The notes beneath the pieces were generated by a model. That model did no database searches and had not been told where the DNA came from. It saw only the letters and a program-made list of their open reading frames with translations. The position numbers and the translations under genes are program-made. Source: a virus. From it: DNA of 28,890 nucleotides. The stretch covers positions 1-28,890 of the IMG/VR virus record IMGVR_UViG_3300009124_000075; one strand, 5' to 3'. Positions 6,996 to 19,439 of this stretch are shown in pieces (position 1 is the first letter of the stretch; every line of letters begins with the position of its first letter).

Positions 6996-7012
6996 GAGTG
7001 AGTAGCGGTTAC

Positions 7013-7047
7013 ACAATAGGAGACATTTGGGGGTTACTAACAATAAT
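7013..7047 (-). promoter_or_regulatory. Intergenic element copy 1
   Basis: Minus strand matches the block-wide element: GTAACC(C)CCAAATGTC core, then TATTGT in place of TATAGT. The proposed ATG is 17 bases downstream. This copy also forms part of a perfect 8-bp hairpin (7029-7054). Confidence 0.7.
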
Positions 7048-7054
7048 AACCCCC
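7029..7054 (-). terminator. Hairpin coupled to element copy 1
   Basis: GGGGGTTA (7029-7036) pairs with TAACCCCC (7047-7054) around a 10-base loop. It lies between the 40-residue gene and the 55-residue gene and overlaps the upstream half of element copy 1. The layout, hairpin then promoter, resembles the promoter-stem-loop cassettes of T4-type phages. No U-tract, so termination is not certain. Confidence 0.5.
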
Positions 7055-7067
7055 AGTAAGTATCACA

Positions 7068-7190
7068 TTAGAACTGAATCTCTGCCTCCTGTGTGTTATT
7101 CACATCTTCGGAGATAGCATCAAGAATCGCAAGGATTTCGTCGCCAGTGTTACCCTGTGAGAGCATACCGAGAAGAACTTCGCGTGACAT
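7068..7190 (-). CDS. Small hypothetical protein (40 residues)
   Basis: Starts MSREVLLGMLSQGNTGDEIL and continues with a helical ILDAISEDVNN segment; acidic C-terminus. It has clean start and stop codons with low-complexity-free, helix-forming composition. It follows the 39-residue gene by 68 bp. Function unknown. Confidence 0.68.
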   Translation of the reverse strand: MSREVLLGMLSQGNTGDEILAILDAISEDVNNTQEAEIQF

Positions 7191-7258
7191 AATAAAAGTG
7201 ATTTAGTGTGAAATGTAGTGGGTTTAGAGTCATCACTAGGACTATCAGTTAATGTGAA

Positions 7259-7378
7259 TCACAGCAGAGATTTGCGCTTGCGCTTAACACCTGAAGGCAG
7301 CACAGTTACTGTTACCTTTCGGTGTCCTTCTGCTTTCACTGTATCAATCAGTTCACAGAGTTGTTGATAAGAACTCAT
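7259..7378 (-). CDS. Small basic protein (39 residues)
   Basis: Starts MSSYQQLCELIDTVKAEGHR and ends in a strongly basic GVKRKRKSLL tail, suggesting nucleic-acid or membrane-surface binding. The ATG is 18 bases downstream of element copy 2, the typical distance in this block, and has no SD sequence. Function unknown. Confidence 0.68.
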   Translation of the reverse strand: MSSYQQLCELIDTVKAEGHRKVTVTVLPSGVKRKRKSLL

Positions 7379-7396
7379 TGCGTGTTGTGTGCTTAC

Positions 7397-7431
7397 ACTA
7401 TAGGAGACCTTTAGAGGTTACTAACAATAAT
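7397..7431 (-). promoter_or_regulatory. Intergenic element copy 2
   Basis: Minus strand: ATTATTGTTAGTAACCTC followed by the TATAGT hexamer at 7402-7397. It precedes the 39-residue gene and ends the 379-bp non-coding stretch on its left side. Confidence 0.75.
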
Positions 7432-7493
7432 ACCATGTTTCAAAGTATATGTCAAGAAAATTATGTGGGTCTGTGGGAGTGTTACATAGGGTC

Positions 7494-7522
7494 TTGACAT
7501 TTGGGAGAGTTTCTGATAGACT
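7494..7522 (+). promoter_or_regulatory. Plus-strand sigma-70-like promoter facing the iteron array
   Basis: TTGACA (7494-7499), 17-bp spacer, TAGACT (7517-7522; four of six matches to TATAAT). It points right, against all genes in the window, and into the repeats and AT-rich tract. No plus-strand gene follows, so its transcript would be non-coding, for example a replication primer. Confidence 0.5.
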
Positions 7523-7544
7523 GCTCGCTTACATCACTATAAGA

Positions 7545-7593
7545 ATGATGCTTTAGAAGGGATTAAATGATGCTTTAGAAGGGATTAAATGAT
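7545..7593. repeat. 22-bp tandem direct repeat
   Basis: Two perfect copies of a 22-bp unit (7545-7566 and 7567-7588; unit contains TGATGCTTTAGAAGGGATTA) plus the first five bases of a third. It lies immediately before the DnaA-box-like array. Confidence 0.9.
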
Positions 7594-7596
7594 ACC

Positions 7597-7647
7597 TTTT
7601 CCACAGATTAACAGGCATTTACCACATATAACAAGCACTTATCCACA
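7597..7647 (+). repeat. Three DnaA-box-like iterons at 21-bp spacing
   Basis: TTTTCCACA (7597-7605), TTTACCACA (7618-7626) and TTATCCACA (7639-7647), all in the same orientation. TTATCCACA is the exact E. coli DnaA-box consensus; TTTTCCACA is the form described for the Synechococcus elongatus oriC. The constant 21-bp step equals two helical turns and puts all three boxes on one face of the DNA. Confidence 0.7.
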
Positions 7648-7746
7648 GGGTTGTTGAAAACTAACAAAACACTCATATACATTTAAAAACACATTTATAA
7701 ATGATTTTTAACATAAAACATGGTATTTATGCTTACTTTTGAGAGG

Positions 7747-7818
7747 TTAATCTTGGTTCCGTAAGAACTGCAGATCCGAAGGATCAAAGAGTTCAGGGTA
7801 ATACCAAGGTTCATGAAT
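7747..7818 (-). CDS. Possible frameshift extension of the upstream small gene
   Basis: A frame open from 7818 reads IHEPWYYPELFDPSDLQFLR and ends after NQD at 7747. The composition (WYYPELFDP) is protein-like rather than random, but there is no ATG. It overlaps the end of the 42-residue gene, and a +1 slip at that gene's UGA stop (after UCA) would fuse them. A non-AUG start or a decayed gene are the alternatives. Confidence 0.35.
   Translation of the reverse strand: MHEPWYYPELFDPSDLQFLRNQD
7752..7808. other. Nested three-helix hairpin
   Basis: CTTGGT (7752-7757) pairs with ACCAAG (7803-7808), GAACT (7765-7769) with AGTTC (7790-7794), and ATCC (7774-7777) with GGAT (7781-7784) around a GAA loop. 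On the minus-strand transcript it begins 2 bases after the UGA stop of the 42-residue gene. It could be a stimulator of recoding, a terminator-like structure, or part of the origin-like region. Confidence 0.6.
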
Positions 7819-7939
7819 TGATCATCCTATTGATAGTTTCGTTGCGTTCTTCAATGATATTCTTAAGGTTAGAATCCATCAAATCAATGAATAGGTTTGC
7901 TCCTAGAATAGTGAAGAGAGCGAGTAAGATAAGTCTCAT
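7811..7939 (-). CDS. Small membrane-anchored protein (42 residues)
   Basis: Starts with a hydrophobic segment, MRLILLALFTILGANLFIDL, then a polar helix (KNIIEERNETINRMINS). It is likely a single-span inner-membrane protein or has an uncleaved signal. It follows the 114-residue gene by 40 bp. The stop codon is UGA, directly before a nested hairpin and a protein-like +1 frame. Confidence 0.65.
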   Translation of the reverse strand: MRLILLALFTILGANLFIDLMDSNLKNIIEERNETINRMINS

Positions 7940-7941
7940 GA

Positions 7942-7989
7942 TTGTTTACGCGAAGGTTGTCAAACAGAGCGTAACTTGTTTACGCGAAG
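7942..7989. repeat. 14-bp direct repeat at a gene 3' end
   Basis: TTGTTTACGCGAAG occurs at 7942-7955 and again at 7976-7989. The right copy contains the stop codon and last codons of the 114-residue gene (…FIFA). The left copy is probably a leftover 3' end from a duplication or deletion. Confidence 0.8.
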
Positions 7990-8324
7990 ATGAAACCATT
8001 AGTGAATTCGTAGGTGTTGAAGACTTTACTTTGTCCTGCCATTCCTACGAGTTTATCAACATACCATTTGAAGTTCTTCTGATAAACACATTCACCCTCT
8101 ACACAGAATTCAACACAGAGTGCATTAAGTCTTGATTTAGTTGTAGTAGACTGATAACCTCCATCAAAGATAGTCATAGAATCATCATCAATTTCAGCGA
8201 TCTTGTTTCCGTGAAGATATACTGTAGAGATGTTATTCTCATCAGTGATAACACTTGTATTACCTGAACTCCAGTTTTTGTTTGACTGGATTGCGGAACA
8301 CATTTGGGATTCGATCTTACGCAT
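7980..8324 (-). CDS. Hypothetical protein, 114 residues, beta-rich
   Basis: Starts MRKIESQMCSAIQSNKNWSS. A series of short strands follows (TSVITDENNISTVYLHGNKI, then a Cys-rich NALCVEFCVEGECVYQKNF), and the end is VFNTYEFTNGFIFA. The pattern resembles small phage proteins of unknown function that occur in several copies in cyanophages. The ATG lies 21 bases after element copy 3 without an SD sequence. Confidence 0.78.
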   Translation of the reverse strand: MRKIESQMCSAIQSNKNWSSGNTSVITDENNISTVYLHGNKIAEIDDDSMTIFDGGYQSTTTKSRLNALCVEFCVEGECVYQKNFKWYVDKLVGMAGQSKVFNTYEFTNGFIFA

Positions 8325-8345
8325 TTGAATTTGAGTGATGCTTAC

Positions 8346-8380
8346 ACTATAGGGGACATTTGGAGGTTACTAACAATAAT
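8346..8380 (-). promoter_or_regulatory. Intergenic element copy 3
   Basis: Full match to the consensus: TTAGTAACCTCCAAATGTC core (minus strand) and TATAGT at 8351-8346. It sits between the 61-residue gene and the 114-residue gene. Confidence 0.8.
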
Positions 8381-8389
8381 GCTTAAGGA

Positions 8390-8575
8390 TTACTCTCCAT
8401 CATTATAACCCATGTATTCATCATAAACATCAGTTACCTTAAGGATTTGTTCTGGTGTAAGATCATCAATGGACATTTGTTCTGTCATATAATCATAAAC
8501 CATCTCCCAATCTGGATTCATTTCTGATACAAATTGGGGCAATGATTCAAGTGCTTCAGTGAATAGTTGTGACAT
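8390..8575 (-). CDS. Small acidic hypothetical protein (61 residues)
   Basis: Starts MSQLFTEALESLPQFVSEMN; strongly acidic, mostly helical, ending DVYDEYMGYNDGE. The segment MSIDDLTPEQILKVTDVYDEY looks like a small helix-turn-helix pair, but no known domain is recognised. It is in one transcript with the NYETWN gene upstream (23 bp gap). Small acidic phage proteins can mimic DNA; that is only a possibility. Confidence 0.75.
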   Translation of the reverse strand: MSQLFTEALESLPQFVSEMNPDWEMVYDYMTEQMSIDDLTPEQILKVTDVYDEYMGYNDGE

Positions 8576-8598
8576 AATAGTTTCTTCTTTGTTGTAGT

Positions 8599-8847
8599 TT
8601 ACAGTTCTTCGATCATTTCGTCAAGTTCAACTAGGTTGAGATTAACATCATTCCATTTAACACCATCGGGAGTCATATCTCCTTCATCAGTATACTTATT
8701 CAAGAAATCTTGATAGGAATAGCAACCACGAGCAGCACGATATAATGGTTCATCATTACCAATCCAGAGTGCTACGTTCCAGGTTTCGTAATTAGTCCAA
8801 CCGTTGTAAGTTTCATCGGTTGTTGTTGTTTGAAAAGTTGAAGTCAT
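8599..8847 (-). CDS. Small protein with a GWTNYETWNVALW motif
   Basis: 82 residues; a Thr-rich start, then NGWTNYETWNVALWIGNDEP (15-34), a motif found in many phage and plasmid accessory proteins of unknown function. The rest is an acidic helical tail (NLVELDEMIEEL). The ATG is 18 bases downstream of element copy 4. Confidence 0.82.
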   Translation of the reverse strand: MTSTFQTTTTDETYNGWTNYETWNVALWIGNDEPLYRAARGCYSYQDFLNKYTDEGDMTPDGVKWNDVNLNLVELDEMIEEL

Positions 8848-8865
8848 GATTGAGTTGTGTCTTAT

Positions 8866-8897
8866 ACTATAGGGGACGTTTGGAGGTTACTAATAAT
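8866..8897 (-). promoter_or_regulatory. Intergenic element copy 4
   Basis: Core matches the consensus with one change (AAACGTC); TATAGT at 8871-8866. The distal TTGTTAG part is shortened by three bases. It precedes the GWTNYETWN gene. Confidence 0.78.
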
Positions 8898-8900
8898 CTA

Positions 8901-9107
8901 TCAAGCAACATCTGCCATTTTCATATAACAATTCTCACTGGCATACTTGATAACGCCATCAGAATCTTTCAATCCAATGAATGAAACTGTACCATTGAAA
9001 ACTTTAACATCAACAACCTCATATCGATTGTTGTTATCATCAGCAACTTTACATCCTTGAATTTGATTTAGAATGGATTTTGCTTTGATGTTATCGTCTT
9101 GAATCAT
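8901..9107 (-). CDS. Small hypothetical protein (68 residues)
   Basis: Start chosen at ATG 9107 (MIQDDNIKAKSILNQIQGCK), 18 bases after the TATAGT of element copy 5, as for the neighbouring genes. An ATG touching the hexamer at 9125 would add six residues. Beta-rich C-terminal half (NRYEVVDVKVFNGTVSFIGL) resembling a small barrel; function unknown. Confidence 0.75.
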   Translation of the reverse strand: MIQDDNIKAKSILNQIQGCKVADDNNNRYEVVDVKVFNGTVSFIGLKDSDGVIKYASENCYMKMADVA

Positions 9108-9125
9108 GGTGCGATTGTCTCTCAT

Positions 9126-9160
9126 ACTATAGTAGACATTTCAAGGTTACTAACAATAAT
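9126..9160 (-). promoter_or_regulatory. Intergenic element copy 5
   Basis: GTAACCTTGAAATGTC core with two changes in the CCTCC stretch; TATAGT at 9131-9126, directly touching an ATG. Confidence 0.75.
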
Positions 9161-9162
9161 CA

Positions 9163-9327
9163 TTAGAAATTAGGTCGTACACTATTAATAATTACTTTTT
9201 CTGCTGGATACATTGCTTCCACAAGTTCCGTGATATATGATCGTTCAGCACGATCAGATTCAATCTCAAAGTTATGCCTACGACCTTTGGAATCAATCCA
9301 GGCACCTGAACAAATTTGAATAGTCAT
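9163..9327 (-). CDS. Small hypothetical protein (54 residues)
   Basis: Starts MTIQICSGAWIDSKGRRHNF; the order strand-turn-strand, then helix (ERSYITELVEAMY), then strand (KVIINSVRPNF) suggests a tiny alpha/beta fold. It follows the 121-residue gene by 6 bp and precedes element copy 5. Function unknown. Confidence 0.7.
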   Translation of the reverse strand: MTIQICSGAWIDSKGRRHNFEIESDRAERSYITELVEAMYPAEKVIINSVRPNF

Positions 9328-9333
9328 TGTTAA

Positions 9334-9699
9334 TTAAGCAAGTGAATAACGATTGATAAGTTTATTGGTTTGCCATACATATTCACCGCCTCCTAAACAA
9401 TCATCTCCAATCTCTTCAATTGAAATGTTATTCAAATATACACCATAAAATTCATCACCCTTCTCATATACAATCACTGTTGATGAACGACAAGCATGAA
9501 TGTCAATGTAGATAGTGTCACTTATATCAGCAAACTTGGCACTGATATATGATTCAATATCACCATATTGATTGCTGTGAATGCGATCAATCCAGATTAA
9601 ATCACGCCCGCCATCTTGATAACGTTCCTCACGATCTTCATCCTGCCAACATTCAACAGTACAAAGTTCACCCTTTTCAGTGTCAAATTCAAAAGACAT
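9334..9699 (-). CDS. Hypothetical protein, 121 residues
   Basis: Starts MSFEFDTEKGELCTVECWQD. Acidic and beta-rich, with no recognised motif. Its start codon shares one base with the stop of the upstream gene (TAATG), showing translational coupling. Three genes (9863 to 9163) form one unit after element copy 6. Confidence 0.78.
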   Translation of the reverse strand: MSFEFDTEKGELCTVECWQDEDREERYQDGGRDLIWIDRIHSNQYGDIESYISAKFADISDTIYIDIHACRSSTVIVYEKGDEFYGVYLNNISIEEIGDDCLGGGEYVWQTNKLINRYSLA

Positions 9700-9863
9700 T
9701 AAACAACTCCATAAGAAGCAACATCGCCAGGAATACCATTCAATGATAACCCTGTATTACAATCATCAGCATAATCATATGCATCATCCTCACTATTAAA
9801 TGGTCCGATGTATTGTGGTTCGTCAAGTTCAACTGACTCAAACCGTACATAAAATGAACTCAT
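9699..9863 (-). CDS. Small hypothetical protein (54 residues)
   Basis: Starts MSSFYVRFESVELDEPQYIG; then an acidic helix rich in Asp and Tyr (NSEDDAYDYADDC) and a short C-terminal strand. It has the look of a small domain for modified-base or protein binding, but no family is recognised. The ATG is 18 bases after element copy 6. Confidence 0.7.
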   Translation of the reverse strand: MSSFYVRFESVELDEPQYIGPFNSEDDAYDYADDCNTGLSLNGIPGDVASYGVV

Positions 9864-9881
9864 GATTGATTGATTGCGTAT

Positions 9882-9916
9882 ACTATAGAAGACATTTAGA
9901 GGTTACTAACAATAAT
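9882..9916 (-). promoter_or_regulatory. Intergenic element copy 6
   Basis: Core TTAGTAACCTCTAAATGTC and TATAGT at 9887-9882. The left end of the element meets the stop codon of the next gene upstream. Confidence 0.8.
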
Positions 9917-10083
9917 TAAAATATATTTGTCCAGGCACGATGTTTGGCAGCACTGATTCTTCCATCCTTAAGTAATCCATCACATACTCTACAAAATACT
10001 TCAAATTTCTCTATTCGTGTTAGGTTGTGATCAACGCCAGTCGCAGTTTGTCCAACGACTTTGAGAACTTGTCCTTTGAGCAT
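9916..10083 (-). CDS. Small hypothetical protein with Cys pair (55 residues)
   Basis: Starts MLKGQVLKVVGQTATGVDHN; later a C-x-x-C (FCRVCDGLL) that could bind a metal, and a basic tail (RISAAKHRAWTNIF). The ATG at 10083 is preferred to one at 10122, which would overlap the upstream gene by 35 bp; the chosen start lies 4 bp after the upstream stop. Confidence 0.68.
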   Translation of the reverse strand: MLKGQVLKVVGQTATGVDHNLTRIEKFEVFCRVCDGLLKDGRISAAKHRAWTNIF

Positions 10084-10087
10084 GATG

Positions 10088-10255
10088 TTAGTTAGTGGGA
10101 AAGTTTTTACAGACAGCATCACATAGGAGTGCTACTAATTCTTCATATTGATCCTTACTAGCGGGGAAGTTCTCACAAAAGAAACCATCACATATGGAAT
10201 CAATATCCTCCATTAGTAATTCTCTTTGTGATAACATTTCAAGATCAGAATTCAT
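10088..10255 (-). CDS. Small acidic hypothetical protein (55 residues)
   Basis: Starts MNSDLEMLSQRELLMEDIDS; helical and acidic, with three cysteines in the C-terminal half. It lies 5 bp after the coiled-coil gene and 4 bp before the next gene in the same unit. Function unknown. Confidence 0.68.
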   Translation of the reverse strand: MNSDLEMLSQRELLMEDIDSICDGFFCENFPASKDQYEELVALLCDAVCKNFPTN

Positions 10256-10260
10256 ATCAA

Positions 10261-10488
10261 TCAACCTCCAAACATTTCATCAAATAGTGATTGTCCTGAC
10301 CGTTCATCATCAGTCATTCTTTGACGTTCACGCATACAAGCAAGAAAGTTAATCTGTGCCTGAATGTCTTCTACTTCGTTGTTGAGTTTCTCTTTCCTAT
10401 AGTTCAACTCCATGATAGATTTGTTGATTTCAACTGTGTTCATAGTTTTGCGAATTGTGAGTGAGTTAAGTTGTTCTTTGATATTCAT
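10261..10488 (-). CDS. Small coiled-coil protein (75 residues)
   Basis: Start chosen at ATG 10488 (MNIKEQLNSLTIRKTMNTVE), which overlaps the upstream stop as ATGA; a longer frame would overlap the upstream gene by 43 bp. Residues 15-50 form a likely coiled coil (NKSIMELNYRKEKLNNEVED), followed by a basic stretch and a hydrophobic GQSLFDEMFGG end. Function unknown; oligomerisation is likely. Confidence 0.75.
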   Translation of the reverse strand: MNIKEQLNSLTIRKTMNTVEINKSIMELNYRKEKLNNEVEDIQAQINFLACMRERQRMTDDERSGQSLFDEMFGG

Positions 10489-10670
10489 TCTGCGGCGTCC
10501 ATGTATACATCGTAAAAGCAACTCCAAGCATCCATATCACAAACAAAGGACGTAATTCCTGCCTGATCACATAACCAATCGTATGCCATATCAATATCAG
10601 CACCGGTCTCCATTACAAACCCTTGGAGACCACGAAGACCAGAGATAAAAGCAGAGTTGTTCAAAAGCAT
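10485..10670 (-). CDS. Small hypothetical protein (61 residues)
   Basis: Start chosen at ATG 10670 (MLLNNSAFISGLRGLQGFVM), exactly 18 bases after the TATAGT of element copy 7. An ATG touching the hexamer at 10688 would add six residues. Acidic, rich in Asp, Trp and Tyr in the C-terminal half. Function unknown. Confidence 0.72.
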   Translation of the reverse strand: MLLNNSAFISGLRGLQGFVMETGADIDMAYDWLCDQAGITSFVCDMDAWSCFYDVYMDAAE

Positions 10671-10688
10671 CGGATTAATCTTGTTCAT

Positions 10689-10723
10689 ACTATAGAAGAC
10701 ATTTGGAGGTTACTAACAATAAT
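10689..10723 (-). promoter_or_regulatory. Intergenic element copy 7
   Basis: Full core TTAGTAACCTCCAAATGTC with TATAGT at 10694-10689; an ATG touches the hexamer, and a second in-frame ATG follows 18 bases later. Confidence 0.8.
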
Positions 10724-10729
10724 CATATA

Positions 10730-10888
10730 TCAATAGTGAGATTCAGAGTCAGTTACAATTGAAAGATAGTGATAGATTCTCTTATAACATTTTTGATTCA
10801 TATCTTCATCTTCACCAATGAATTCATAACAATAACGAAGACGATTATATGGGTCTTCTAAATGTTTTTGGATTTCAGTTTGATTCAT
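10730..10888 (-). CDS. Small hypothetical protein (52 residues)
   Basis: Starts MNQTEIQKHLEDPYNRLRYC; helical, rich in Tyr and acidic residues. Its ATG overlaps the upstream stop as ATGA. It ends just before element copy 7. Function unknown. Confidence 0.7.
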   Translation of the reverse strand: MNQTEIQKHLEDPYNRLRYCYEFIGEDEDMNQKCYKRIYHYLSIVTDSESHY

Positions 10889-11094
10889 GAGTAGTGATTA
10901 GCGAGAGAGATCAGATTAGATTCTTCAACAACACTTGAGAGGGGAGTTGTTGCCCACTTGTGAAAGGTCTTACCCTCGTCACCTTCGTTCATAATATCCT
11001 CAATCAGATTACCTGTTACAGTAACAACGTAGGAACCCACATAGGGTGCCTGGTAGTGTTCAGAGAGGATTGAGATCGCTTGAGTAGTATTCAT
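10885..11094 (-). CDS. Small hypothetical protein (69 residues), ATG touching the element
   Basis: Starts MNTTQAISILSEHYQAPYVG. The ATG directly follows TATAGT of element copy 8 and, unlike copies 5 and 7, no second ATG lies nearby (next Met is residue 35). If TATAGT were a simple -10 box, this ATG would not be transcribed. Either a GTG at residue 19 is used or the element works differently. Function unknown. Confidence 0.7.
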   Translation of the reverse strand: MNTTQAISILSEHYQAPYVGSYVVTVTGNLIEDIMNEGDEGKTFHKWATTPLSSVVEESNLISLANHYS

Positions 11095-11129
11095 ACTATA
11101 GGCGACGTTTAGAGGTTACTAACAATATT
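11095..11129 (-). promoter_or_regulatory. Intergenic element copy 8
   Basis: Core GTAACCTCTAAACGTC with TATAGT at 11100-11095, between the first methyltransferase gene and the 69-residue gene. Confidence 0.78.
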
Positions 11130-11954
11130 ACAACGTTCTTTGGCAATCTGTGTATAATCTTCTGACAGATCTATGCCAACAAACTCTCTATCATTATTGA
11201 TACATCCCACACCTGTTGTACCTGAACCACAGAAAGGATCTAGGACTTGTCCACCAATAGGACTGTAAATCTTGACGAGATACTCCATCAAACTCACAGG
11301 TTTTACGGTAGGATGATTGTTACCTTCTCCCTTCTCTTTACGGGTTGCGCGTGGAGCATAGAAGTATTTCTGATGCTCTGATTGTACCTCACCAATGATG
11401 TTTGATGGATACCTACCAGCAGGATTTGCGTCCTTTGTGCCATACTCAGCACCTGTACCCTTCGTATTACCTTCCTTGCCAAATGTGCGACGCTTGGCAC
11501 CACCAGCAACCCAACCTTTTGGAGGTTCTTTATCCCATGGCACACGGGTATTCTCTACATCAATGATGCCACATCCCCACTGCTCAAAGTTACTTTGTAG
11601 AGAACCTTTGTATGGTTTTTGTGCCACTACAATTGGTTCATGAGCAGGTTTTAACCTGTTATGTTTGGGCATCTTTGTTGTAGTCATCCACATAATCTGG
11701 TCTTTAATAATAAAACCAGCATCCTCCACATTCACCGCCATACGATGATACAATTCAGGAGAGCAGAAAGATAACAAGAACGCACCCGGTCGCAAAGTTC
11801 TATAAACCTCACGCCAGATCTCTACAGTGGGAACAGCATAATCCCATGTATCCATACCCATCCCATATGGAGGATCAGTGATACAAGCATGAAAGAGATT
11901 CTCATCATAAGTGGAGAGAACCTCTTGACAATTACCAGCAGTGATTGAGAACAT
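11109..11954 (-). CDS. DNA methyltransferase 1 (N4-cytosine/N6-adenine, beta-type order)
   Basis: 281 residues from ATG 11954 (MFSITAGNCQEVL). DPPY at 27-30 (motif IV, catalytic) precedes DPFCGSGTT at 239-247 (motif I, AdoMet-binding FxGxG), which is the beta-class order. HPTVKPVSLMEYLV lies before motif I and matches motif X. It methylates an exocyclic amine in DNA; the target site is unknown. It overlaps the end of a PD-(D/E)XK nuclease gene by 23 bp and follows it in the transcript, so the two form a restriction-modification-like pair. A longer N-terminus would lie inside the nuclease gene. Confidence 0.9.
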   Translation of the reverse strand: MFSITAGNCQEVLSTYDENLFHACITDPPYGMGMDTWDYAVPTVEIWREVYRTLRPGAFLLSFCSPELYHRMAVNVEDAGFIIKDQIMWMTTTKMPKHNRLKPAHEPIVVAQKPYKGSLQSNFEQWGCGIIDVENTRVPWDKEPPKGWVAGGAKRRTFGKEGNTKGTGAEYGTKDANPAGRYPSNIIGEVQSEHQKYFYAPRATRKEKGEGNNHPTVKPVSLMEYLVKIYSPIGGQVLDPFCGSGTTGVGCINNDREFVGIDLSEDYTQIAKERCNIVSNL

Positions 11955-12462
11955 TGGATTCACAGATTTGGCGTTCAGAGTGTTTGAAATAGTCTTTCTT
12001 TCCAGCACCACTTTGAGTATACATGTTTCTGATATAAAAGTCAAATCCGCGTGAATCTTCTTGCCATTCTTCTTCCATCTGATACATTTTGAGAACTGCG
12101 TTAAGTTCTTCAGTCAGATTAGCAAACTGTTGGCGTTTCTTATCGCTGACAACATCATCAGCAAAAAATATAGTAGTCTCATCATATTTGGCACTAGAGA
12201 AGATGTAAACTACACCTTTCTTTGGCAAACCACCATTATAAGTGGGAAATGTTTGCTTGCTAGACTTACATTCAATGTCAACAGTCTTACCATCCTCCAG
12301 TGTTACCCTGAAATCAGGACTGTTTTGGATTCCGTTAGGTTGTGCTTCGTATTGAATGTTATGTTTGATCAACAAGTCTTCAACCTGTTGTTCATGAAGC
12401 GGGTTATCTTGACTGTTGGATTTATATCCAAGGGTCAAAACATCTTGAAAGAATTGTTTCAT
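11932..12462 (-). CDS. PD-(D/E)XK endonuclease 1 (type II restriction enzyme-like)
   Basis: 176 residues. QPNGIQNSPDFRV (41-53) gives the P-D (49-50) and VDIECKSSK (61-69) the E-x-K (E64, K66) of the PD-(D/E)XK fold; HEQQVEDLLIKHNIQ before it fits the first helix with a Glu. This spacing is typical of type II restriction enzymes. The C-terminal half has no other domain and probably makes the site-specific contacts and dimer. It precedes and overlaps the methyltransferase gene by 23 bp. Start ATG 12462 lies 34 bases after element copy 9. It could cut host DNA, or competing phages, at sites the partner methylase protects. Confidence 0.82.
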   Translation of the reverse strand: MKQFFQDVLTLGYKSNSQDNPLHEQQVEDLLIKHNIQYEAQPNGIQNSPDFRVTLEDGKTVDIECKSSKQTFPTYNGGLPKKGVVYIFSSAKYDETTIFFADDVVSDKKRQQFANLTEELNAVLKMYQMEEEWQEDSRGFDFYIRNMYTQSGAGKKDYFKHSERQICESNVLNHCW

Positions 12463-12496
12463 AGAATCTCGGACTTGATCGCCCGTTGATGCTTAC

Positions 12497-12531
12497 ACTA
12501 TAGGGGACATTTAGAGGTTACTAACAATAAT
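12497..12531 (-). promoter_or_regulatory. Intergenic element copy 9
   Basis: Core TTAGTAACCTCTAAATGTC, TATAGT at 12502-12497; drives or precedes the nuclease 1 / methyltransferase 1 pair. Leader to ATG is longer (34 bases) than in other copies. Confidence 0.8.
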
Positions 12532-13409
12532 TACATAAACTTACTGTTGGTAAAGTTAGCATAACTGAACTCCTCACGGTTGACAAGTTTGATGGCATTT
12601 GATAGCGTCCAATATACAAAACCCTCACCGACAGTTTGTTTACCACTAGGCAGGAATGTATCAAAATCAGAGTATACAATCATATCTTCAATCATCTCTT
12701 GCTTGAGTTCAATAATCCACAAATATAGGTTGGCAAGGTAATTACAACGCAAGATAGTTGTCAGAATCTCATCATCAAGTTTGTAACCAGATGCGATCAG
12801 TTGATTGATTGCTTGCTTGGCACGATTTGCCTGCTGTGGTGTCAAGAACTTGACCATGCTACTGTCAATCTTTGGAGCAGTATCATCGCGATGAATACGA
12901 TCAACAGACGGCATTACAAACTTGATATGTTTTGTATCGTCAAAACATTCACGCAGTGGCAGAGCAACAGCATCACAAAGTTCACCATCAACATAATACT
13001 TTGTATGTGGTGCGATGACAAGTTTCTGGTCAATCTTCTCGGGGAAGACATAAGTTAGCGTATTGTTGGTAAATTCACTCTTACGACCAAAACCAATGAA
13101 ATCACCTTGATACACACCTTCCGTGCGAGGAAGATACTTAAGCATCAAATATAGCAGGTCAGCAACATCTTCTTGATGACCAAAATGCTGATGAATATCA
13201 TCAACTGTGTAGCATAGACGAATCTTTTTCTTGTTGAATGCTGCTTTGGTACATACAAAGAATTTACCCTGATATGTACCCCAAACAATAGCGGGAGCAC
13301 CATCCATTTTCAAACCAATATGAAAAGCAGAACCATAAAGGTCATCAAAAATAGAAAGATCACCAGTGAGAATGGTGTCTTCTGGATGTTCGAGGTGTGT
13401 GTTTGCCAT
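12531..13409 (-). CDS. DUF6267-like nucleotidyltransferase (DNA/RNA ligase-like)
   Basis: 292 residues. NTHLEHPEDTIL (3-14) is the conserved N-terminus of this phage family. KMDG (34-37) in GLKMDGAPAIVWG is the K-x-D-G nucleotidyl-lysine motif of ligases and capping enzymes, and EGVYQGDFIGF (97-107) fits motif III. VFPEK and later KFVMPSV are candidates for motifs IV-V. It would adenylylate itself and perhaps seal or modify nucleic-acid ends; substrate unknown. The ATG directly touches TATAGT of element copy 10, and the conserved N-terminus argues that this ATG is real. Confidence 0.78.
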   Translation of the reverse strand: MANTHLEHPEDTILTGDLSIFDDLYGSAFHIGLKMDGAPAIVWGTYQGKFFVCTKAAFNKKKIRLCYTVDDIHQHFGHQEDVADLLYLMLKYLPRTEGVYQGDFIGFGRKSEFTNNTLTYVFPEKIDQKLVIAPHTKYYVDGELCDAVALPLRECFDDTKHIKFVMPSVDRIHRDDTAPKIDSSMVKFLTPQQANRAKQAINQLIASGYKLDDEILTTILRCNYLANLYLWIIELKQEMIEDMIVYSDFDTFLPSGKQTVGEGFVYWTLSNAIKLVNREEFSYANFTNSKFM

Positions 13410-13444
13410 ACTATAGAAGACGTTTGGGGGTTACTAACAATATA
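13410..13444 (-). promoter_or_regulatory. Intergenic element copy 10
   Basis: Core GTAACCCCCAAACGTC, TATAGT at 13415-13410, directly followed by the ATG of the nucleotidyltransferase gene. Confidence 0.78.
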
Positions 13445-13446
13445 TT

Positions 13447-13710
13447 TCAGAATCCTCGCGAGGAGAGTTCATTTTCTATTACCTGTTCAATTACTTCAAC
13501 CACATAAGGATGATCTTCCATATTGATTGCTTCCAAGATCATTTTAGCATCATTTGGTGGTACTTTCTCTAAATTTGTAGATTCTTCACCTTCTGTCATA
13601 AGATCATCATTTGTGATAATCCACGCCGCACATGGTGCTTTAGCACCTAACTTTGTAGAGAGAGAATTGACGTAAGTTTGTAACTCCCCCATTGATTTAA
13701 TCTTTTTCAT
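13447..13710 (-). CDS. Hypothetical protein, 87 residues
   Basis: Starts MKKIKSMGELQTYVNSLSTK; helical N- and C-termini with a central Trp-rich strand (APCAAWIITNDDLM). Its ATG overlaps the upstream stop (ATGA), placing it in the helicase transcript. Function unknown. Confidence 0.75.
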   Translation of the reverse strand: MKKIKSMGELQTYVNSLSTKLGAKAPCAAWIITNDDLMTEGEESTNLEKVPPNDAKMILEAINMEDHPYVVEVIEQVIENELSSRGF

Positions 13711-13934
13711 TTGTTTTTACGAGATCGCTTGTGTTTATCTATAAAGTTTATTGCTGATTGTCTATTTCTACAAACTTTAAGAACATTTGCTTGATGAACA
13801 ACAGCGAGTTTAGTTGTGCTGTTAGAAATGGGCACTGCCGCATACATCATAGGATCATCATACTTTCCTACGATAAATCCTTCCTCATAAGGAACAGCAT
13901 CAAGCAAACTTGTCCTAGTATATGTTATCTTCAT
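13707..13934 (-). CDS. Small basic protein, 75 residues
   Basis: Starts MKITYTRTSLLDAVPYEEGF; beta-rich first half, then a basic helix ending in DKHKRSRKNK, suggesting nucleic-acid binding. ATGA overlap with the helicase stop on one side and with the 87-residue gene on the other. A helicase accessory role is possible from position only. Confidence 0.75.
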   Translation of the reverse strand: MKITYTRTSLLDAVPYEEGFIVGKYDDPMMYAAVPISNSTTKLAVVHQANVLKVCRNRQSAINFIDKHKRSRKNK

Positions 13935-15112
13935 CGGCGCATTACAGAATCAAGAACCTCACCTTTTTCAAACACAATATCAACAACACGCTGCAATGCG
14001 CGTTCAGTGGCAACACCAACGTTTGAATATACTGGGACGCAGAGCATACCATAAGTTTTAGCATTTCCACCTTTACGAAGAACACGCCCAACAGTTTGAG
14101 TAAGTTCAATGACATCCATGTTGCGAAGGAAAATGACTGCCTCAAGTTCTGATACGTTGATACCTTCAGCAAGGATTGAACGGTGAAGTACAATAAACTT
14201 ACGATCAGGATCTTTACCCCAACTGTTCAGCACGTCAAAGAAATGCTCACGGGATACTTTCTTGCCATTGATAACAGCACCAGTCTTGGAAGTGATGTAA
14301 AGATAATCATACCCACGCTGCTCAAGTTCATAAGCAAAATCAGTCTGAAAGAGATTGATAAGTTGCTGGGTTGTTCTTACTGCCACCAAAATCTTCTTGA
14401 TGCTGATGTCATCAATGGTCTTAAGGATATTGCTAGAGTCCGTGAGTGGAGTGATGGACTTGACAGGCATTTTTGCCATGTCAATAACTTTCACTTTAGG
14501 TGGCAAAATGAATCCACCATCAACAAGTTTAGGGGCAGAAACACGCGAGATAATTTGACCATAAACGTCAGCATTGTTCATCCCTGGTTTGTTAGGAGTG
14601 ACAGAAGTCTTGCGGGTCGCTGTAAAATAGTAGCAACGATCTGCTTTCTTGCTGTAGTGCTCAACAGAAGGATAGCAATGACGCTGAACAGAATTGTGTG
14701 CCTCGTCAAAATAGATTGTATCGACAGAAATACCTGCCTCAACAATACGATGAAGAGAGTGATATGTGGTGAAGATAATAACATGCTCCCGCACTGTCTG
14801 ACACATATCAACAAACAGTTTGATACGTTCTGACTTTGTAGTTCTGAAATGCTTTGTCTCTCCACTGTGAACATGGAGAGGGTTAGCATTAGTCACATGC
14901 TCAAGAAACTCCGAAGAGAGTTGTTCTGCGAGCAAAATACGAGGGCAAACAACTACAATAGTGCGAGGAACATTGACCTCAAAACGACGCACGGCGTCCA
15001 TGATTGCGACCAATGTCTTACCACCACCAGTGGGGAAGATACACTGACCGATAGAGTTTACTTTAAGGGCGTTAAGTGCTTCTTGCTGATGAGGGCGAAG
15101 AGTTACGGTCAT
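13931..15112 (-). CDS. SF2 DEAH-box helicase (Res-subunit/UvsW-like)
   Basis: 393 residues from ATG 15112. LRPHQQEALNAL opens the domain; Walker A is PTGGGKT (27-33), motif II DEAH (136-139), motif III TAT (164-166), motif V EGINVSELEAV (316-326) and motif VI QTVGRVLRKG (339-348). Complete two-RecA core, no extra nuclease or methylase domain. The family includes type I/III restriction subunits and the phage recombination helicase UvsW. Longer readings from 15235 would run through element copy 11 into the methyltransferase gene, so the ATG 16 bases after the element is used. It heads a three-gene unit between the two restriction-modification-like pairs. Confidence 0.88.
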   Translation of the reverse strand: MTVTLRPHQQEALNALKVNSIGQCIFPTGGGKTLVAIMDAVRRFEVNVPRTIVVVCPRILLAEQLSSEFLEHVTNANPLHVHSGETKHFRTTKSERIKLFVDMCQTVREHVIIFTTYHSLHRIVEAGISVDTIYFDEAHNSVQRHCYPSVEHYSKKADRCYYFTATRKTSVTPNKPGMNNADVYGQIISRVSAPKLVDGGFILPPKVKVIDMAKMPVKSITPLTDSSNILKTIDDISIKKILVAVRTTQQLINLFQTDFAYELEQRGYDYLYITSKTGAVINGKKVSREHFFDVLNSWGKDPDRKFIVLHRSILAEGINVSELEAVIFLRNMDVIELTQTVGRVLRKGGNAKTYGMLCVPVYSNVGVATERALQRVVDIVFEKGEVLDSVMRR

Positions 15113-15128
15113 CAAGTCAGGTTGTTGT

Positions 15129-15162
15129 ATAATAGAGGACATTTGGAGGTAACTAACAATAT
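15129..15162 (-). promoter_or_regulatory. Intergenic element copy 11
   Basis: Core GTTACCTCCAAATGTCC with TATTAT at 15134-15129, a better -10 than in other copies; 16 bases before the helicase ATG. Confidence 0.78.
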
Positions 15163-15893
15163 CACAGTGGAAGTTTGCCGACGTTGATGCGACTTGCTGC
15201 TTTATCAAAATATTCTTTTTCTCGTTCAATACCAATAAACTTTCTGTCTTCCATATTTGCTGCTATTCCAGTTGTTCCGGCACCCATACATGGGTCAAGT
15301 ATAGTATCACCAGGGTTTGAATATGTTCGCACTAACCATCTATAAAGTTCAACAGGTTTCTGTGTAGGATGAAACTTACCCTCACTTTCTGCTGTCTTAA
15401 AGTATATCACACTTCTAGGATAACGTGTTCCCTCTTCATTTTTGACGTGAACTGCTTTAGTTTGTTTACCATATTGTTCGCAGTCTCGTAATGCTTTACC
15501 CTTATCATATGGGTCACCCGATGTCATCTGTGGATTGTAAGTTGGTTGTTTTTTATAGAAAACTACAATATCCTCATGTGCTCTCATCGGTTGCTTTTTA
15601 GCATTTAAGTAACCAGTTGCCTTGCTCTTTTCCCATACTAGATTATACTTGAAATCTCTGTAGTTTGTAGAAATCAATACAGATGTGAATGGTTGTGCTG
15701 CTGTTGATATAATCGCACAATTTGGTTTACAAATTACATCAACAATCTCCCAGAATCTATCATAATCGATGATACGATCCCACTGATTGCGAGACTTGTT
15801 TAATGTCCCATAGGGAAAATCTGTCAACAGAAGATCAATGCTCTGGGGTTCAAGATTACCCAGAACATTGAACATATCATCATTATACAGCAT
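15162..15893 (-). CDS. DNA methyltransferase 2 (beta-type order, DFPY motif IV)
   Basis: 243 residues from ATG 15893 (MLYNDDMFNVLGN). TDFPYG (24-29) takes the place of the usual DPPY catalytic motif; DPCMGAGTT (200-208) is motif I, and FHPTQKPVELYRWLV before it fits motif X. Motif order is beta-class, as in N4-cytosine and N6-adenine methylases. Its ATG shares one base with the stop of endonuclease 2 (TGATG), so the pair is translationally coupled. The D-F-P-Y variant keeps Asp, Pro and Tyr, so activity is plausible. Confidence 0.88.
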   Translation of the reverse strand: MLYNDDMFNVLGNLEPQSIDLLLTDFPYGTLNKSRNQWDRIIDYDRFWEIVDVICKPNCAIISTAAQPFTSVLISTNYRDFKYNLVWEKSKATGYLNAKKQPMRAHEDIVVFYKKQPTYNPQMTSGDPYDKGKALRDCEQYGKQTKAVHVKNEEGTRYPRSVIYFKTAESEGKFHPTQKPVELYRWLVRTYSNPGDTILDPCMGAGTTGIAANMEDRKFIGIEREKEYFDKAASRINVGKLPL

Positions 15894-16468
15894 CACTTAT
15901 TCAACCATTCCACAAATTGATTATACGCCATCGTGTCAAGTTTGAAATCTTCACGATACTCTTCTCTGTAGATAGAGCGAGAAGATGAACGCTTACGAGA
16001 AGGATTAACAAAAAAGATCTTTACTTCCTTACCTGTAATCTTCTTGAAGAAAGCAGGATAGTAGGCAAAAGCATCCTTCCCACAGGCATTTTGTCCAGCG
16101 AAGATTGCGTACTCTACATTGTCAGGAACATCAGGAGATTGATCCAGTTCAATGAAGTCCATCACAGCACGTTTGAGATAGCAAGCATCCAAATAACATT
16201 TAGATTCGACTGCTTTCGTCATCACACCGTTGCGATAGATGTGTTTATCCACCTGAAGATTCTTCAGGCAAGTACCATTAACCTCCTCGGTGCGTTTGTA
16301 ATCATTTCTGCGGGCATCTAGTCCCAATTTATCACAAGTTCTCGCAATCAAGTTCTCATAAACTAGACCAGATGCTGACCGAGCAGCACCACCACCCAAC
16401 TCAAAATGAGTCTGGGGAAGTTTATCAACTTCGGTCTCGTACTGTTTGATGATGTTAAGTAAACTCAT
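15893..16468 (-). CDS. PD-(D/E)XK endonuclease 2 (restriction enzyme-like)
   Basis: 191 residues. LQVDKHIYRNG (71-81) gives the Asp (D74) and AVESKCYLD (86-94) the E-x-K (E88, K90) of a PD-(D/E)XK active site; SGLVYENLIARTC (33-45) fits the helix with the preceding Glu. The E-S-K plus a following helix (KRAVMDF) resembles EcoRI-like type II enzymes. The C-terminal third is basic (NPSRKRSSSRS) and probably binds DNA. It is followed directly by methyltransferase 2, so this is a second restriction-modification-like pair, unrelated in sequence to the first. Confidence 0.75.
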   Translation of the reverse strand: MSLLNIIKQYETEVDKLPQTHFELGGGAARSASGLVYENLIARTCDKLGLDARRNDYKRTEEVNGTCLKNLQVDKHIYRNGVMTKAVESKCYLDACYLKRAVMDFIELDQSPDVPDNVEYAIFAGQNACGKDAFAYYPAFFKKITGKEVKIFFVNPSRKRSSSRSIYREEYREDFKLDTMAYNQFVEWLNK

Positions 16469-16477
16469 GATAAAAAA

Positions 16478-16508
16478 AGAGATGGGGACATTTAGTGATT
16501 ACTAATAT
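16478..16508 (-). promoter_or_regulatory. Intergenic element copy 12 (degenerate)
   Basis: Keeps AAATGTCCCC and TTAGTAA but the CCTCC stretch reads TCACT and the hexamer is ATCTCT. It precedes endonuclease 2, with 9 bases to its ATG. Confidence 0.5.
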
Positions 16509-16509
16509 A

Positions 16510-16770
16510 TCACTCAATGCGAGTAATTACCATGCAGGTTTCACCTGTTTCTTTCAATTCCTGTTTTTGATAAGAAACCTTGAAACCTTCATGTGCCAAT
16601 ACACCTGGCACAGGTGGGTGATAGTGTGATTCAGGATTCTCCAACGGAATATAAAAGAACATACCGGGTTCCATGTTATACCAAGGATACTTAAGTTTCC
16701 CCCCTCTACCTACAGGAGGTTCAAACATGGCGTCGTTATCTTCAACATTGAACAGATCAAAAGCGGACAT
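16510..16770 (-). CDS. Hypothetical protein, 86 residues
   Basis: Starts MSAFDLFNVEDNDAMFEPPV; the central part is Pro- and aromatic-rich (YPWYNMEPGMFFYIPLENPE) and the end is a short beta region (GETCMVITRIE). It looks like a small soluble domain. No element copy precedes it; it sits 32 bp after the 72-residue gene. Confidence 0.75.
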   Translation of the reverse strand: MSAFDLFNVEDNDAMFEPPVGRGGKLKYPWYNMEPGMFFYIPLENPESHYHPPVPGVLAHEGFKVSYQKQELKETGETCMVITRIE

Positions 16771-16802
16771 GATGATAATGGAGTGAGTTTAGTGAGTGTG
16801 AA

Positions 16803-17021
16803 TCAGGCAGCAGATTCTTCTGCTGTTGTTGTTGCTTTGCCTACGTTAGATGGACCTTTCCAAACTAGACCATTCTCCTCCCAATGTGCGATAAATGCGC
16901 GACGAAGTTCAGTCAGTTCATTATAACGCGACTGCTGTTCTTTTGTCAAATTAAAGTTATTATCTCTCCACACTTTGCGGAGTTCTTGAAGTTCACGAAT
17001 GATGGTCGAGGAGTTGTTCAT
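16803..17021 (-). CDS. Small helical protein, 72 residues
   Basis: Starts MNNSSTIIRELQELRKVWRD; two helices (ELQELRKVWRDNN and QSRYNELTELRRAFIAHWEE) and an Ala/Thr-rich tail. The ATG is 15 bases after element copy 13. Function unknown. Confidence 0.75.
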   Translation of the reverse strand: MNNSSTIIRELQELRKVWRDNNFNLTKEQQSRYNELTELRRAFIAHWEENGLVWKGPSNVGKATTTAEESAA

Positions 17022-17036
17022 GATGTGGTTGCTTAC

Positions 17037-17071
17037 AGTATAGTGGACATTTGGAGGTTACTAACAATAAT
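17037..17071 (-). promoter_or_regulatory. Intergenic element copy 13
   Basis: Full core TTAGTAACCTCCAAATGTCC with TATACT at 17042-17037, between the two neighbouring small genes. Confidence 0.78.
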
Positions 17072-19015: not shown

Positions 19016-19186
19016 TCACCACCTATCAGGTGTGTTTAGATCTTCAACATAAGCATTGACTTTTTCAGATCCTTGAATATCAAGAACTTTATCCCAATCA
19101 ATGTTATGAGGTTGAAAGTCATCCATCACATCTAATTCTAGAGTGACGCGATACTTTGCTTTTTGCGGCATGTAAGCGAAAGGCAT
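19016..19186 (-). CDS. Small hypothetical protein, 56 residues
   Basis: Starts MPFAYMPQKAKYRVTLELDV; one beta strand, then an acidic region with DWDKVLDIQGSEKV. The ATG has a clear AGGAGT ribosome-binding site 7 bases upstream and a sigma-70-like promoter before that. Function unknown. Confidence 0.78.
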   Translation of the reverse strand: MPFAYMPQKAKYRVTLELDVMDDFQPHNIDWDKVLDIQGSEKVNAYVEDLNTPDRW

Positions 19187-19210
19187 GGTGAACTCCTGAA
19201 CTACTTTAAC

Positions 19211-19239
19211 AATATAGTACGAAATCCACCCGCAGTCAA
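19211..19239 (-). promoter_or_regulatory. Sigma-70-like promoter for the 56-residue gene
   Basis: Minus strand TTGACT (19239-19234), 17-bp spacer, TATATT (19216-19211): ten of twelve consensus bases at ideal spacing. Predicted start near 19205, about 18 bases before the ATG. Confidence 0.7.
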
Positions 19240-19439
19240 GGGGTGGTGGTCAGTTGTTTGACCGGACAGTGAATATATTTAGTGTCATAAAATAAGTTTT
19301 TAACATTTCCTGACACAATGAATAAATTAGTGATGATTAATTGTACCATGATGAGTGTGCGGATAATGGCAATTTTATCCGCTTCCTTTACATCTCTACC
19401 TTCTTTCTGACCTAGTGCCTTTGCCCATAGTCTCCACAT
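19236..19439 (-). CDS. Small membrane protein, 67 residues
   Basis: MWRLWAKALGQKEGRDVKEA at the N-terminus, then one transmembrane helix (IIRTLIMVQLIITNLFIVSG, about 25-44) and a short polar tail. The N-terminal sequence resembles small membrane proteins common in cyanophages. Function unknown; an inner-membrane location is likely. Confidence 0.78.
   Translation of the reverse strand: MWRLWAKALGQKEGRDVKEADKIAIIRTLIMVQLIITNLFIVSGNVKNLFYDTKYIHCPVKQLTTTP

Follow-up and report, generated by a model that had tools for sequence, protein, structure and literature searches.

A candidate replication origin with an exchangeable DnaA-box cassette in T4-like cyanophages

In bacteriophage T4, the origins oriF and oriG each span some 100 bp, made up of a promoter and an A/T-rich DNA unwinding element (DUE); at oriF the transcript has been shown to form an R-loop that primes DNA synthesis, and oriE combines an early promoter with iterons (PMC3016281). 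According to its annotation, oriE makes a primer RNA that is complementary to the gene 5 transcript and lies 1.7 kb before gene 6. Cyanophages lack motA, and their early transcription is thought to use the host sigma-70 polymerase (PMC2984593). On the bacterial side, the 9-mer TTTTCCACA has been named as a DnaA box specific for Cyanobacteria (PMC5987646). For phage Syn9 a single theta origin was predicted earlier, as cited in PMC2984593. Our search of the literature on cyanophage origins and DnaA boxes returned nothing relevant beyond this prediction, which is like the present case in that an origin was proposed for a T4-like cyanophage. The Syn9 prediction reportedly goes back to Weigele et al. 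2007.

We analyzed a 28.9-kb viral contig (the window, by which we mean the whole of this stretch of DNA) of a T4-like cyanophage, whose genes include gp6, gp25 and a series of small ones. In the list of open reading frames (ORFs), nearly all genes lie on the - strand, and no tRNA was found in the window. A gap without genes extends over approximately 430 bp (~7381-7810) between small genes that end near 7380 and at 7811; judged from the ORF list alone, it is the longest gene-free stretch of the window, as an initial annotation of this DNA had stated.

Two promoters diverge within the gap. The rightward one, TTGACA-N17-TAGACT (equivalently TTGACA-N14-TGATAGACT), lies at 7494-7522 on the + strand, has an extended -10 TG and points against all the genes; the leftward one, TTGACA-N17-TATTAT, also with an extended -10, lies at 7455-7427 on the - strand and reads into the leftward gene cluster. 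Downstream of the rightward promoter, the alignment contains a conserved initial transcribed stretch, GCTCGCTTACATCACTA (7523-7539, +; consensus GCTCGCTAAGATCACTA), which is followed by two exact tandem copies of a 22-bp repeat, AATGATGCTTTAGAAGGGATTA (7544-7587, +). A near relative, L020, has a single copy of this repeat. Three DnaA-type 9-mers come next, all on the + strand: TTTTCCACA, the cyanobacterial consensus, at 7597-7605; TTTACCACA, with one mismatch and 21 bp past the first, at 7618-7626; and TTATCCACA, another 21 bp on, at 7639-7647. A degenerate inverted box, TTTTCAACA, occupies 7652-7660 on the - strand, at a spot where many relatives have TGTGGAAAAC. Beyond the boxes lies an A/T-rich, thermodynamically unstable tract with the core CATATACATTTAAAAACACATTTATAAATGATTTTTAA (7674-7730), a candidate DUE which by computed stability is the fourth least stable site in the 28.9 kb. 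The initial annotation had described the promoter facing the boxes, the three 9-mers starting at 7597, 7618 and 7639 with their exact 21-bp steps, and the A/T-rich stretch after them, and all of these proved to be present. It had not seen the leftward promoter, the 22-bp tandem repeat or the conservation of the region in other phages.

Two other features of the window were observed. A 40-bp repeat, TTACACTATAGGAGACCTTTAGAGGTTACTAACAATAATA, recurs between small - strand genes from 7009 to 17071, with about ten more copies at 81-95% identity (for example 7009-7048, 7393-7432, 8339-8380, 9875-9916, 11095-11137, 12490-12531 and 17030-17071); it may be an early promoter, or a leader, that the genes of a row have in common. 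The gene at 12531-13409 (-) encodes a 292-aa DUF6267 protein with a KMDG stretch near its start that, by the look of the sequence, is reminiscent of nucleotidyltransferases such as ligases.

The element recurs in other cyanophages. With the gap alone as query, blastn returned matches to S-SCSM1, P-TIM68, S-SM2, S-SKS1, Bellamy, Sf-FS3 and one single-cell virus, and a syntenic non-coding element was present in S-SCSM1, P-TIM68, S-SM2, S-SKS1, Bellamy, AG-345-O18, Sf-FS3 and RB11-B. In the annotated relatives it lies near a group of genes formed by gp25, purM and a gene for a 263-aa protein, and it is oriented opposite to the direction of the genes. Its neighbors are small phage genes and not dnaA, whereas a bacterial oriC typically lies beside dnaA or dnaN. 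The position of the element is 73.4 kb in Bellamy, 58.2 kb in S-SM2 and 151.3 kb in S-SKS1. The pattern TTGACA-N14-TGATAGACTGC occurred in at least 119 viral contigs, mostly as part of this element (~100 contigs). When the neighboring 263-aa gene was the sole basis for picking contigs, and 2.9 kb or more of sequence had to follow to the right, 21 of 24 contained the element, a count in which the weaker cases were recognized by a relaxed pattern and by eye, and which is not a rate for all cyanophages because the 24 are the nearest relatives of the window's 263-aa gene. P-SSM2 lacked the element both at the syntenic gap and by profile search, and Syn9 and S-PM2 had only remnants without a clear -35/-10 pair; these cases count against reading the element as an origin. 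In P-HM2 we found just a weak promoter-like match, inside a gene.

We then compared the element over 70 non-redundant contig clusters, defined at 85% identity over 200 bp. In 53 of 69 clusters the 160 bp upstream of the -35 of the rightward promoter contained a leftward promoter, which was so in 4.2% of control windows; the most frequent distance between the two was 76 bp. The least stable 50 bp of ~4.4 kb fell inside the element in 53 of 70 clusters (a computed property), where the length of the element alone would lead one to expect this in about 6%, and the unstable tract lay at a median of 153 bp past the -35. What the aligned sequences have in common is a fixed frame, made up of the two divergent promoters, the conserved start of the transcript and, about 150 bp downstream, the unstable tract.

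A T4-type origin is recognized by a promoter directed into it and, about 100 bp downstream, an A/T-rich DUE; the element has both, the second by computed stability. In this it resembles T4 oriF (ori uvsY) and oriG (ori 34), although the promoters of these two are MotA-dependent middle promoters, whereas the cyanophage element has a plain sigma-70 promoter and an inserted cassette of boxes. Its resemblance to oriE is one of arrangement only: oriE has an early, non-MotA promoter, an RNA antiparallel to the genes and evenly spaced repeats shortly before gene 6, and the cyanophage element likewise lies before gp25-gp6 in antiparallel orientation. Unlike the cyanophage element, which is non-coding and has a separate unstable tract, oriE has the repeats that we located inside the coding sequence of gene 5, at 24-bp steps, with no exact DnaA box near.

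The rightward promoter might instead serve a regulatory RNA, small and either non-coding or antisense, with phage or host genes as its targets and the tract as no more than its end or a spacer. The promoter is strong and conserved, with its extended -10, and the start of its transcript is conserved as well; moreover, no ORF of 40 aa or more in the ORF list begins on the + strand of the element, all of which would suit such an RNA. The transcript itself argues otherwise. Compared with shuffled sequences, six transcripts gave z values of 0.5, 1.2, 1.1, -0.5, 2.2 and -2.2, so that an unusual fold was absent in five, and the value of -2.2 is apparently due to inverted DnaA boxes. The element had no match in Rfam and thus showed neither the known family nor the fold stabler than shuffles that mark a structured non-coding RNA. 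The transcribed part varies in length and is replaced wholesale among near relatives, the surroundings of the tract at 7674-7730 showed no rightward terminator, and a small RNA would leave both the DnaA boxes and the unstable tract unexplained. We consider this explanation unlikely.

The boxes stand out by their arrangement rather than their number. Single box-like 9-mers were not enriched in the window (24 found versus 23.9 expected, with at most one mismatch), but none of 1000 dinucleotide shuffles reproduced a group of three boxes on one strand within 60 bp of which two were exact, and none of the 1000 gave equal spacing of the boxes. Over the 70 clusters, the element contains 59 copies of exact TTWTCCACA, or 3.4 per kb; 204 kb of flanking sequence contain 14, or 0.07 per kb, which amounts to an enrichment of about 50-fold. 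At least one exact box was present in 30 of the 70 clusters and at least two in 25, and there were none in 40; a cluster of boxes beside a DUE, as at oriC, is therefore found in the window and in those 30 clusters, and not in the other 40. In Syn9, 2 of the 4 boxes in the genome lie in this place, and in S-PM2, 3 of 9; the sole box clusters of these two phages are in the weak, apparent remnants of the element, which in Syn9 lie at about 52.6 kb.

The initial annotation had staked its reading in part on conservation of the 21-bp phase, and this held: 21 bp was the commonest spacing between same-strand boxes over the 70 clusters (14 of 40 spacings), and the boxes of S-SKS1, at 151414, 151435 and 151456, are separated by steps of 21 and 21 bp. 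Triple boxes at 21-bp steps occurred in 101 viral contigs (L373-L473) and at 25-bp steps in none, which makes 21 bp, or two helix turns, a real preference. Many of these 101 contigs are apparently unrelated to cyanophages, and we dropped the idea that the phasing is special to cyanophages. The use of DnaA boxes by phages may be widespread.

Boxes were also seen in less usual settings. In P-TIM68, two inverted TTTTCCACA boxes at 58194-58216 (L010 ~2294-2316) lie upstream of the promoter in the same gap, on the opposite side from the usual slot. At 19177-19333 of S-PM2 (AJ630128; L291 3678-3834), annotated genes for tRNA-Asn and tRNA-Leu overlap the DnaA-box cluster; ARAGORN finds no tRNA between 15.5 and 26 kb of this genome, and the annotated tRNA coordinates look misplaced.

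A DnaA domain was absent from the ten phage genomes searched, which leaves the earlier suggestion that the phage might encode an iteron binder unsupported for elements of the DnaA-box class; phages with other classes of repeats may encode one. DnaA is encoded in three picocyanobacterial genomes. The genome of Synechococcus RCC307 had just 8 exact TTTTCCACA in 2.2 Mb and no box cluster at the ends of the record, where the origin is expected on the dnaN side, and this weakens the case that the DnaA of picocyanobacteria uses such boxes. Box clusters seen in other family members are at most candidate oriC sites and were set aside. For the box-bearing class, we consider the participation of DnaA about as likely as not.

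The slot that holds the boxes is exchangeable. Near relatives may be nearly identical up to the promoter and wholly different after it, as in L207, which has boxes, and L213, which has none, or in L096 and L074. On a tree of the neighboring 263-aa protein (87 rows), the presence of boxes requires at least 17 changes, 6 of which are forced by well supported branches; part of the changes may reflect recombination between the gene and the element, itself a form of exchange. Repeats in the slot keep to the helical phase: whether or not a cluster has DnaA boxes, four-letter words reappear after 10-12, 20-22 and 30-33 bp. Slots free of DnaA boxes carry TTCTCAAYA/TTATTGAGAA, GATAYKAATT palindromes or ATGTGN3-4CACAT repeats. 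These box types B-D were chosen by eye in box-free elements, so that their statistics are descriptive, and that DnaA boxes occurred together with them in 0 of 70 clusters is for the same reason not evidence. Four D-class clusters were without the usual unwinding tract, a further point against the origin reading.

Some box-free elements are of particular types. L017, L022, L028, L040, L080 and L090 combine the conserved promoter with repeats of ATGTGTTACACAT or ATGTGCCCCACAT but are without the A/T-rich tract usual elsewhere, and the five elements of this type that are in the tree form one clade. In L146, L150, L171, L184, L196 and L209, TGATAYKAATTCGTATCA-like palindromes occupy the slot ahead of the A/T-rich tract.

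In 40 of the 70 clusters exact DnaA boxes are missing and yet promoter and unstable tract persist; this points to a T4-type origin of promoter plus DUE in which the DnaA cassette is optional. The proposal of an origin-like region with DnaA boxes in a T4-type cyanophage is thus well supported by conservation of the element, except that the boxes are not what is conserved at its core. A likeness to cyanobacterial oriC is that the TTTTCCACA boxes share one face of the helix and directly adjoin an unstable tract rich in A/T, and the last box is inverted in many cyanophage members, another likeness to bacterial oriC. Unlike the situation at a bacterial oriC, the phages have no dnaA, the promoter is fixed and the boxes, with their 17 changes on the tree, are dispensable in evolution.

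This dispensability also bears on the view that the array is a sponge or a regulatory site, at which the boxes titrate host DnaA against host initiation or DnaA acts as a repressor or roadblock on the facing promoter. The position of the boxes just downstream of a promoter and beside an early promoter pair would be in keeping with such a role. We nonetheless find it quite improbable, since an array of two to five boxes is small for titration, the promoter and tract persist where exact boxes are missing, and the boxes abut the least stable DNA, for which a sponge has no need. Least probable is an ordinary divergent early promoter region with phased A/T-rich repeats that merely bend or melt the DNA and raise leftward transcription, which would explain the leftward promoter conserved in 53 of 69 clusters but neither the location of repeats and tract beyond the rightward promoter, where transcription leads into no gene, nor the presence of DnaA-type boxes, which an upstream enhancer role does not predict.

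We therefore favor the reading of the element as a candidate replication origin of T4-like cyanophages, to which we assign, on sequence evidence, a probability of roughly 0.7. Our analysis suggests, as the best explanation, a transcription-primed origin like T4 oriE and oriF, with an exchangeable cassette able to recruit host DnaA. Early in infection, the host sigma-70 polymerase would transcribe rightward from the promoter at 7494-7522, antiparallel to the phage genes, and the untranslated transcript would pass the box array and arrive at the unstable tract at 7674-7730. There, on the model of T4 oriF, it could remain paired with the template in an R-loop and serve as primer for the leading strand, and the phage primosome would enter on the strand set free. 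The exchangeable cassette that separates the promoter from the DUE would consist of repeats, in phase with the helix, to which proteins bind. In this phage and many relatives these are DnaA boxes at 21-bp steps, where host DnaA, attached along one face of the helix, would help to melt the tract or to load the helicase; other phages have different boxes in this position. Promoter firing, R-loop formation, DnaA binding and a replication start at the element are all steps that we infer.

The T4-type part of this model fits because a sigma-70 promoter is directed against the genes, its transcript has neither an ORF nor an unusual fold, and the unstable tract follows at a fairly fixed distance; the added DnaA step, as at oriC, fits because the phased boxes adjoin the tract. 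Base composition counts against an origin. GC, AT and purine skews of six complete genomes showed no turning point at the element, and the maximum of the detrended GC skew lay 8-18 kb off the element in Syn9, S-SM2 and Bellamy and elsewhere in the other three genomes.

More tentatively, and at somewhat less than even odds, T4-like cyanophages may possess a modular origin in which the frame is fixed, initiator-binding cassettes are swapped by recombination and the use of initiators switches between near relatives. One cassette would hijack host DnaA through its 21-bp-phased boxes, and the cassettes with TTCTCAAYA/TTATTGAGAA, GATAYKAATT or ATGTGN3-4CACAT would serve different initiators of host or phage.

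The replication start of the abundant marine T4-like phages appears not to have been established, the Syn9 prediction being the one earlier mention that we found. The element provides a concrete candidate fragment of ~240 bp that is conserved in culturable phages and open to direct testing. As a natural experiment, the exchange of cassettes would show how origins come to use new initiators. Should host DnaA bind to the boxes, a phage of the virulent T4 type would make its first round of replication depend on the initiator of its host, and such a tie could couple the growth of the phage to the growth state of the host.
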